Shown here: in pieces, positions 1-2,641 of the stretch
Position numbering within the stretch: the first letter of the stretch is position 1
Layout: every line of letters starts with the position of its first letter
Source: Bacteroidales bacterium
GTDB lineage: Bacteria > Bacteroidota > Bacteroidia > Bacteroidales > TTA-H9
Direction of reading: 5' to 3'
Length of the DNA stretch: 64,000 nucleotides
Assembly (NCBI GenBank): GCA_030656615.1
Contig: JAUSOY010000005.1
Span: 1 to 64,000 of the forward strand
The notes under the pieces: model-generated
The model's database searches: none
Seen by the model: the letters and a program-made list of their open reading frames with translations, nothing else
Told to the model about the DNA's origin: nothing
Program-made: the position numbers and the translations under genes

Positions 1-24
1 CTTAGTACATGACAAAAATCACAA
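1..24 (+). repeat. IS left terminal inverted repeat
   Basis: Starts CTTAGTACATGACAAAAAT and matches the complement of the right end with one mismatch over 19 bases, with weaker similarity beyond. Confidence 0.85.
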
Positions 25-109
25 ACAATTAATAATCAATAGTATATGTTAATAACTTAGTGATAACTATTGATGATAAAAATGATTTAAAATACTGATA
101 TTCAGTATC

Positions 110-1237
110 TTGAGTGAAATACTTGCAGGTATGGCACCAAGATACATGAACACCAGTATTGAGAGTAAAAATAGTATTTTACTCTCAACGTTATCAGAAG
201 TTTTCGGGGATAAAATGAATTTTGCCCGAATAAGGTTCTTTGGCTTATTTATTATGGCTCTTTGCAAAGTCCAAACCGTATGTTTTGAGAAATTGGCTAC
301 CAGTTTTGAGAATGAAGTGAAAGTAAATTCATCACTTCGAAGGATTCAGCGCTTTATGTCAGATTATCTGTTAGATACCAATCTGATAGCTCGATTAGTT
401 TTTGCACTACTTCCGCATAAACCGCCCTATCGTCTAGCGATGGATAGAACTAACTGGAAATTTGGTTCTGCAAACATCAATGTTCTGGTTGTTGCAATTG
501 TTTACCAAGGTGTTGCGTTCCCAATCCTGTTTACGATGATGCCTAAATTTGGCAATTCATCAACAAATGAAAGGATTGACCTGATGAACCGCTACATAGG
601 ATTGTTTGGCAAAGAGAGTATTGATTGCCTGTTGGCAGACAGAGAGTTTATTGGAGAGCATTGGCTGGGTTATCTTAATGCTAATCGAATTAGATACCAC
701 ATTCGCATTCGAGATAATTTCTGGGTCGACATTCCAAGAAATGGTCATCGGGTAAAAGCTTCATGGTTATTTAATAATATGAAAATCAATCAATATGCTT
801 TTTACAGCGGGATTGTTTATGTCAACGGCCAACTCTGTTATCTATCAGCTTCGAAAGTCAAAAACAAAAAAGGCGTACCTGAATTTCAGATTATTGTTTC
901 CTTTAACAAACCTGAGCAGGCGCAGTCATTGTATAAAGAACGATGGCAGATTGAGACTGCTTTTAAAGCTCTAAAGTCAAGTGGGTTCAACATTGAGGAC
1001 ACACATTTGACCGAAATGGAAAGGATAAGCAAGCTCTTCGCTCTATTTTTTGTCGCATTTGTTTGGGCGTACAAAGCAGGCATATACTTGAATGAAATTT
1101 GCCCTATCAAAATTAAAAAACATGGTAGAAAAGCAAAGAGCCTTTTTAAATATGGTCTGACATTCCTTGCTAATGTGTTATTTGGTAATGATTTAGATAA
1201 ATTTAAAGAATGTTGTAAATTTTTGTCATGTACTTAG
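110..1237 (+). CDS. IS4-family DDE transposase
   Basis: This transposase cuts and joins the ends of the surrounding insertion sequence. The RNase H-like catalytic triad is visible as D112 (in MDRTNW), D177 (in LLADREF) and E282. E282 belongs to the IS4 hallmark Y-x2-R-x3-E-x6-K (Y275, R278, E282, K289). All three acidic residues are present and the frame is open, so the enzyme could be active. The first possible start is TTG at 110; ATG at 131 (residue 8) is a likelier start. The TAG stop lies within the right terminal inverted repeat. No second IS gene is present, and the only neighbour is the gene it interrupts. Confidence 0.9.
   Translation: MSEILAGMAPRYMNTSIESKNSILLSTLSEVFGDKMNFARIRFFGLFIMALCKVQTVCFEKLATSFENEVKVNSSLRRIQRFMSDYLLDTNLIARLVFALLPHKPPYRLAMDRTNWKFGSANINVLVVAIVYQGVAFPILFTMMPKFGNSSTNERIDLMNRYIGLFGKESIDCLLADREFIGEHWLGYLNANRIRYHIRIRDNFWVDIPRNGHRVKASWLFNNMKINQYAFYSGIVYVNGQLCYLSASKVKNKKGVPEFQIIVSFNKPEQAQSLYKERWQIETAFKALKSSGFNIEDTHLTEMERISKLFALFFVAFVWAYKAGIYLNEICPIKIKKHGRKAKSLFKYGLTFLANVLFGNDLDKFKECCKFLSCT
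1214..1237 (-). repeat. IS right terminal inverted repeat
   Basis: Read on the minus strand it begins CTAAGTACATGACAAAAAT. It contains the transposase stop codon and also supplies the premature stop of the interrupted metalloprotease gene on the other strand. Confidence 0.85.
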
Positions 1238-2182: not shown

Positions 2183-2220
2183 AAGACCCTCTGATAATTT
2201 GATGATAATCAGAGGGTCTT
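2183..2220 (-). terminator. Rho-independent terminator after the GIY-YIG gene
   Basis: A perfect 13-bp stem (AAGACCCTCTGAT / ATCAGAGGGTCTT) with a 12-nt loop. On the minus strand it runs into seven T residues, so it should end the tRNA-Arg/GIY-YIG transcript. The rest of 1954-2228 shows no gene. Confidence 0.8.
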
Positions 2221-2228
2221 GGCTTAAT

Positions 2229-2297
2229 TTTGTAGCCCCAACAGGACTCCCTGCCTGCGTGTCTGCGTCAGCAGTCAGGCAGGGAACCTGTATTTAA
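2229..2297 (-). repeat. Copy of the tRNA-Arg 3' end (T arm and acceptor), interrupted
   Basis: Positions 2229-2249 are identical to 2566-2586, and 2284-2297 are identical to 2587-2600. Together they reproduce the last part of the tRNA-Arg gene at 2570-2641 plus a few flanking bases. The copy lies 337 bp downstream of the tRNA in the same orientation, with the GIY-YIG gene between. This is the arrangement left by integration at a tRNA 3' end. The copy is broken in the T loop by a 34-bp palindromic insertion. Confidence 0.85.
2250..2283. repeat. 34-bp palindromic insertion in the tRNA copy
   Basis: The insert begins CCTGCCTG and ends CAGGCAGG, a perfect 8-bp stem around an 18-nt loop. It sits exactly between the C and G of the T-loop sequence TTCGAGT in the duplicated tRNA segment, while the true tRNA is uninterrupted. 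It looks like a REP-type mobile palindrome. Confidence 0.75.
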
Positions 2298-2537
2298 TTT
2301 TAGTCTGTATTGTTTAAGCCATCGTCTTCCGGTGGTAGATTTGAAATAAATTTCAGGTTTTCTGGCAGAAGGGTAGTCGTGGCATTGCTCAGAGTACAGT
2401 AATTTCCATGGTTTGAAAGCCTTGGTATATCTGTTTTTCCCAGCATTATGTTCTTTGAGTCTTCGTTCTAAATCCGAAGAAATACCGATATAAATTTCGG
2501 CGTTAATGTCGTTGGTAAGAGCATATAGATAAACCAT
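2268..2537 (-). CDS. GIY-YIG nuclease domain protein beside tRNA-Arg
   Basis: An 89-residue single-domain protein with the GIY-YIG fold signature: the first motif near the N-terminus (YLYAL, with YIG about 12 residues later), the arginine-containing helix ERRLKEHN, and the conserved glutamate in PEIYFKS. Stand-alone proteins of this size belong to the UPF0213-like group, whose substrate is generally unknown; UvrC and homing nucleases share the fold. The gene lies 32 nt downstream of tRNA-Arg on the same strand, so the two may be cotranscribed. Its last codons (NTGSLPDC) run into the copied T arm. Without the 34-bp palindrome the frame would continue NTGSSPVGAT through the acceptor stem, so the present C-terminus is a product of that insertion. 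Confidence 0.8.
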   Translation of the reverse strand: MVYLYALTNDINAEIYIGISSDLERRLKEHNAGKNRYTKAFKPWKLLYSEQCHDYPSARKPEIYFKSTTGRRWLKQYRLKLNTGSLPDC

Positions 2538-2569
2538 ACAAAGAAGGCTCCCTTTTATGGCAGCCTTTG

Positions 2570-2641
2570 TAGCCCCAACAGGACTCGAACCTGTATTTAA
2601 AGTTTAGGAAACTTCCGTTCTATCCCTTGAACTATGGGGCC
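2570..2641 (-). tRNA. tRNA-Arg (anticodon CCU)
   Basis: On the minus strand the sequence folds as a 7-bp acceptor (GGCCCCA with TGGGGCT, first pair G-U), D stem GTTC/GAAC, anticodon stem GAAGT/ACTTT with loop TTCCTAA (anticodon CCT), a 4-nt variable loop, T stem ACAGG/CCTGT with loop TTCGAGT, and discriminator A. CCA is not encoded. This reads AGG codons. Confidence 0.93.

Follow-up and report, generated by a model that had tools for sequence, protein, structure and literature searches.

What is a short nuclease gene doing between an intact tRNA gene and a second, incomplete copy of that same tRNA? The question is raised by a locus in the genome of a Bacteroidales bacterium (assembly GCA_030656615.1, contig JAUSOY010000005.1), of which a stretch of 64,000 bp (positions 1-64,000, called the window hereafter) was analysed. 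An initial annotation of this DNA had seen there a minimal mobile unit using a tRNA 3' end as its target, and had proposed searching for the same arrangement at other tRNAs.

Organisation of the tRNA-Arg unit

All parts of the unit lie on the minus strand, in the order tRNA-Arg(CCT) (2641-2569), 89-codon open reading frame (2537-2268) and partial copy of the tRNA 3' end (2297-2229). The tRNA gene (2569-2641) is intact, as called by ARAGORN and as judged from its Rfam tRNA score of 65.5 bits, and is followed by a spacer (2538-2568) whose sequence holds an imperfect hairpin and a weak T run (AAAGGCTGCC..GGGAGCCTTCTTTG); a scan called neither a terminator nor a strong promoter in this spacer, and the nuclease gene is probably expressed by read-through from the tRNA. 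The initial annotation had described a direct-repeat spacing of 337 bp between the tRNA 3' end and its copy, and this is real: a perfect repeat of 21 nt (2229-2249 and 2566-2586) scores 21 compared with at most 14 in shuffled controls. Equally well founded is its view of a one-gene unit devoid of an integrase, as the sole open reading frame between the repeats (2268-2537) encodes, on the strand of the tRNA, an 89-residue single-domain GIY-YIG nuclease (open reading frame call; Pfam, E=3e-16; AlphaFold2).

The copy consists of two blocks that are contiguous in the tRNA. The first (2284-2297, tRNA nt 42-55) lies within the 3' end of the reading frame and repeats 2587-2600 perfectly over 14 nt at a spacing of 303, while the second (2229-2249, tRNA nt 56-73 plus AAA) belongs to the 21-nt repeat. 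The difference of 34 bp between the two spacings is due to extra sequence in the copy (2250-2283; CCTGCCTG...CAGGCAGG when read along the minus strand), a 34-nt hairpin (CCTGCCTGACTGCTGACGCAGACACGCAGGCAGG) that parts the blocks in the T loop (GGTTC^GAGT) and was overlooked by the initial annotation. The nuclease frame enters the copy, as had been noticed; it reads through the first block and finds its stop codon inside the hairpin. Past the copy, an inverted repeat forms a strong hairpin followed by a T run (2183-2220, minus strand; AAGACCCTCTGATTAT..ATAATCAGAGGGTCTTTTTTT), a probable terminator.

A complete insertion sequence occupies the start of the contig (window positions 1-1237), just past the gene that follows the tRNA-Arg unit; it encodes a DDE transposase and is bounded by terminal inverted repeats of 19 bp that are 95% complementary. 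For the tRNA-Arg locus of the window, same-family relatives provide no empty-site control, as no tRNA lies close to the ispF homologue in them.

A bare GIY-YIG domain

The product of the gene is a bare domain that belongs to the GIY-YIG superfamily by its catalytic Glu and its conserved Tyr, Arg and His; Y, G, R, H, E and K are invariant in an alignment of 29 proteins. Structure prediction from the single sequence gave a pLDDT of 39 and was hence repeated with an alignment of 29 relatives, which raised the value to 90. The closest solved folds in a fold search are UPF0213 BH0048, the catalytic domain of I-TevI and Slx1; by sequence, the matches among structures are 1YWL and 1ZG2, and distant profile matches lead to intron and homing endonucleases. 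With a dN/dS of about 0.1 where synonymous sites are unsaturated, the nuclease is under purifying selection.

Recurrence at many tRNAs

The genome of the window contains seven GIY-YIG genes, five of them short, and three of these five directly follow a tRNA on the same strand and precede a partial, palindrome-bearing copy of that tRNA: the Arg unit of the window, a tRNA-Met unit (C83, TCCGCCAGCTGGCGGA) and a tRNA-Asn unit (C46, CCCCGATAGCTATCGGGG), the latter two missed by the initial annotation. These three tRNAs are unlinked. Chance adjacency is estimated at about 0.7% per gene, given 39 tRNAs, each counted with 0.66 kb, in a genome of 3.56 Mb. The survey was extended to short GIY-YIG genes of 40 relatives and about 300 Bacteroidota genomes, with regions taken mostly in order of Pfam score, which favours high Pfam scores, and with a single genus covered in greater depth. 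A tRNA on the same strand lies within 330 bp of 64 of 210 short GIY-YIG reading frames, a count that still includes a few loci entered twice, and none has a tRNA on the opposite strand only. After removal of duplicates, 56 tRNA-linked units were left, of which 49 carry a partial cognate tRNA copy at the far side of the gene and seven, some of them at contig ends, have none; 14 isotypes are represented among the tRNA-linked units of the tree set. The recurrence at different tRNAs with matching duplicates, proposed at the outset as a check, is thus borne out.

When 84,980 species were scanned with Arg/Leu-type nucleases, 80 loci were obtained, most of them adjoining a tRNA, and the taxa with tRNA-adjacent loci comprise Bacteroidota, Chlorobiota, Omnitrophota and many Patescibacteria. 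The same 20-nt palindrome (CCTGCCTGCCGGCAGGCAGG, described below) interrupts the broken copies of, for example, Yanofskybacteria, Kaiserbacteria, Shapirobacteria and Omnitrophota. Sequence comparison strongly supports a recurrent tRNA-linked element. A single relative was found in IMG/VR, and a viral vector was rejected on this ground.

Two geometries and tandem arrays

In the first geometry (type A), which is that of the window, the intact tRNA is followed by the nuclease and a 3' copy; in the mirror-image type B (L020, L041, L081), a promoter and a 5' copy precede the nuclease, which is followed by a promoter and the intact tRNA. The unit leaves an intact tRNA next to a disarmed copy, and both types would be the expected leftovers of a small-circle single crossover, or of repair, through the shared tRNA sequence. 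The initial annotation had taken the tRNA 3' end as target; the 3' end is nevertheless not a mere attachment site, since the copy is interrupted by a hairpin and the mirror-image units duplicate the 5' part together with the promoter.

Tandem arrays are common, with three repeats of 354 bp (L018), three of 317 bp (L081) and five of 450 bp (L089, in a one-contig genome); units in the one-contig genomes G172, G228 and G276 argue against assembly artefacts. Apart from these, four loci (L362, L363, L376 and L383) have tRNA-Pro 3' pieces after the intact tRNA and no nuclease gene nearby, the pieces at L362 being a tandem array of hairpin-swapped copies with a terminator on each. A row of full-length tRNA-Val-like copies at L021, all with an identical swapped anticodon arm (TTCCGTCTTAAAACGGAA), includes some that ARAGORN misnames as tRNA-Phe or as unknown.

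The hairpin in the tRNA copy

The position of the hairpin is precise in the 44 copies mapped and is specific to the family. For many tRNAs (Asn, Gly, Lys, Pro, Thr, Val and Ile), the 17-nt anticodon arm is exactly exchanged for a hairpin of the type TCCCG..CGGGA or TCCG..CGGA; for others a 20-nt palindrome (CCTGCCTGCCGGCAGGCAGG) is added without any loss of bases, the site being the D loop in type B and GG^TTC within the T arm in type A. In mapped copies of the Met family, TCCGCC-N4-GGCGGA stands at the identical place in the genome of the window and in a distant genus. Perfect inverted repeats with an arm of at least 6 are present in 37 of 49 copies (shuffles: mean 4.8, maximum 9), and since 21 of the intact tRNAs in these units reach the threshold as well, placement carries more weight. 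A test for compensatory changes within the hairpin exchanged in the tRNA-Pro family gave an unconvincing result: 63 of 70 cells were paired, compared with 58 on average and at most 64 after shuffling. The most likely effect of the hairpin is that the carried copy would lose both its nuclease target and its tRNA function.

Outside these units, the CCTGCCTG palindrome is present in 30 of 148 Bacteroidota genomes, at up to 18 per genome; dispersed palindromes are often found in the loops of REP-like repeats and occur away from GIY-YIG genes. Perfect short palindromes (CCCCGATAGCTATCGGGG, CCTGCCTGCCGGCAGGCAGG) dispersed in Bacteroidota genomes were also observed at L009:1501-1518, L122, L136, L142 and L143, in contexts that include a CACTTTT microsatellite and REP-like hairpin loops.

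Nuclease families and their tRNAs

In a tree of 182 short GIY-YIG proteins, those linked to a tRNA cluster together (15 changes compared with a shuffled mean of 46 and minimum of 39), and the same holds for tRNA identity, with 20 changes compared with 37.5 on average and at least 33 after shuffling. Members of a given family (Met, Leu, Arg, Cys, Gly or Lys) mostly fall together, and the Met group covers distant genera. That the tree follows tRNA identity favours recognition of the cognate tRNA gene by its sequence.

The initial annotation had held that GIY-YIG relatives lacking a tRNA duplicate would speak against mobility, and here the outcome is divided: most tRNA-linked units do have the copy, but about two thirds of the surveyed short GIY-YIG genes have no tRNA. 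Many of the latter lie between direct REP-like palindromic repeats, some with palindromes in the loops of these repeats. At L003, L013, L048, L107, L165, L192, L197 and other loci, the tRNA-less gene is often flanked by long direct REP-like copies, and some such genes are arranged as GIY-REP-GIY-REP tandems. An explanation driven by REPs alone was rejected, as one REP motif is equally frequent in G336, a genome with almost no short GIY-YIG genes, and in G302, and does not track their presence in this pair.

Presence and absence at orthologous sites

Descent of the arrangement at a single tRNA, which would have spoken against mobility, does not describe these units: they occupy many tRNAs and are present or absent between close species. 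In genus g106, G302 has a unit at tRNA-Leu(CAA) (L148), whereas the corresponding site of G336 (L149), with flanks 96% identical, consists solely of the same tRNA and the terminator; the site is likewise unoccupied in three other species of the genus. The intact tRNA-Leu is not recoded relative to the empty allele, and the broken copy carries CTTCGG in its variable arm, unlike the CTCCGG of the local tRNA and like other species, which suggests, as far as this arm can tell, a foreign source. Eight further GIY-YIG loci of G302 have no such gene in G336; a decayed remnant at the tRNA-Gly locus of G336 indicates that part of the presence/absence pattern is loss. At tRNA-Pro(TGG) in genus g43, 16 of 28 loci show no trace, three have the nuclease and nine have nuclease-less hairpin-swapped copies, some of them in tandem arrays. 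Presence/absence polymorphism at orthologous sites is a mark of Seg-type free-standing homing endonucleases, as is an intergenic, intron-free position, which these genes also have.

Proposed mechanism and alternative explanations

The reading that best accommodates these observations, with a probability of about 0.6, is that of a minimal selfish element of homing type, in which a single bare GIY-YIG gene would be joined to a partial, hairpin-disarmed copy of the host tRNA. The likeliest mechanism, as far as it can be read from sequence, is homing by cleavage. The nuclease, whose transcription would come from read-through or from a second copy of the tRNA promoter, would recognise its cognate tRNA gene, as is suggested by the families keeping their tRNA across genera, and would break unoccupied alleles; repair or single-crossover recombination via the shared tRNA sequence would then insert the unit. 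Insertion would always spare one intact tRNA, the only viable product for an essential gene. Self-cutting must somehow be avoided, given that the presumed target is still present in the intact tRNA next to the unit. This puzzle, the tRNA-less relatives in REP-like repeats, the seven of 56 units that have no copy, some loss and the palindromes away from GIY-YIG genes all count against this selfish-element reading.

Also put forward here, tentatively and as a less likely reading, is a new class of minimal mobile elements spanning several phyla, in which a bare GIY-YIG domain devoid of a separate DNA-binding domain would move by hairpin exchange: tRNA arms would be swapped, or loops plugged, by mobile palindromes, and the resulting disarmed tRNA copies would amplify with or without the nuclease. 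The enzyme might be a structure-specific hairpin exchanger, an analogue of RAYT/REP that, like Slx1, would act on cruciforms or on the bases of hairpins, as in tRNA arms and REP repeats, and would spread short palindromes; we consider this rather unlikely. Hairpin-for-hairpin replacement would be its signature, as in the exact 17-nt anticodon-arm swap and the loop insertions, and the presence of Slx1 in the fold-search list, the many non-tRNA relatives flanked by REP-like direct repeats and the dispersal of palindromes are in keeping with it; the nuclease families that follow tRNA identity, the equal frequency of the REP motif in G336 and G302 and the weak covariation of the hairpin (63/70 compared with a maximum of 64) are not. 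A RAYT/REP system proper was rejected, the protein being a GIY-YIG nuclease and not an HuH-type tyrosine transposase.

An addiction or home-and-rescue module, in which the nuclease attacks the tRNA gene so that loss of the arrangement is punished, would fit the intact tRNA that always remains, the purifying selection and the tandem arrays, but it is improbable given the many species that lack the unit at the same locus, footprints that represent loss with no evident harm, and an intact tRNA that is not recoded compared with the empty allele. The chance neighbourhood of an ordinary GIY-YIG gene and the tRNA remnant of a lost island deserves a thought in view of how common tRNA remnants of integrated islands are (PMC9897764); the recurrence with cognate copies, the single strand, the precise hairpins and the tandem units leave it practically no room. 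Just as hard to sustain is the idea that a tRNA gene here houses a group I intron, now degenerate, together with its homing endonuclease: GIY-YIG is a family of intron endonucleases, to which the distant profile matches also point, but no Rfam intron match was obtained in 16 units, the tRNA is intact and unsplit, and the spacers are short, usually tens of bases, which excludes such an intron for the units examined. An island driven by an integrase is likewise excluded for the units examined, there being no integrase between the repeats.

If the preferred reading of a homing-type selfish element is true, an element of about 300-450 bp with a single enzyme of 85 aa is carried by essential tRNA genes in several phyla and ranks among the smallest autonomous selfish elements known. 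It would account for many partial tRNA copies in bacterial genomes, connect the short and poorly explained palindromes dispersed in Bacteroidota with GIY-YIG genes, and offer a simple system in which to study how a nuclease can parasitise an essential gene and yet spare its host. The sites, empty alleles and footprints on which a test would draw are now identified.

Comparison with known systems

We know of no tRNA unit for the UPF0213 GIY-YIG proteins. These (PDB 1ZG2, 1YWL) have the same single-domain fold and are the nearest solved structures, with weak sequence similarity. In the open-access literature no description of such tRNA-GIY units was found, most subscription papers lying outside this coverage, and the units apparently form a family of minimal selfish elements that has so far gone undescribed. 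Integrative islands at tRNA 3' ends (PMC9897764) also combine an intact tRNA with a displaced partial tRNA as a direct repeat; by comparison, the units described here have no integrase, measure hundreds of bases instead of kilobases, carry a hairpin in the copy and exist in 5' versions. RAYT and REP/REPIN systems (PMC2817692, PMC3116915) likewise associate a small enzyme gene with short palindromic repeats and enzyme-less copies, but pair a tyrosine HuH-type enzyme with REPs, whereas a GIY-YIG enzyme is here paired with tRNA-derived units, sister GIY-YIG genes lying in REP-like repeats. The nearest known system is SegB of T-even phages, a free-standing GIY-YIG homing endonuclease encoded between tRNA genes (PMC2988022), which co-localises with tRNAs in phages and drives the tandem segmental amplification of tRNAs and its own gene (PMC13096335). 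Both systems have a free-standing, tRNA-linked GIY-YIG gene with no intron, tandem amplification of tRNA and nuclease, and many isotypes. How SegB spares its own genome has been left open (PMC13096335), and this is the same puzzle as for the bacterial tRNA units. SegB belongs to phage genomes and their tRNA clusters, whereas the units described here reside in bacterial chromosomes at one tRNA each, and differ by their bare domain of about 85 aa, their hairpin-tagged partial tRNA copy and their arrays of GIY-less copies.
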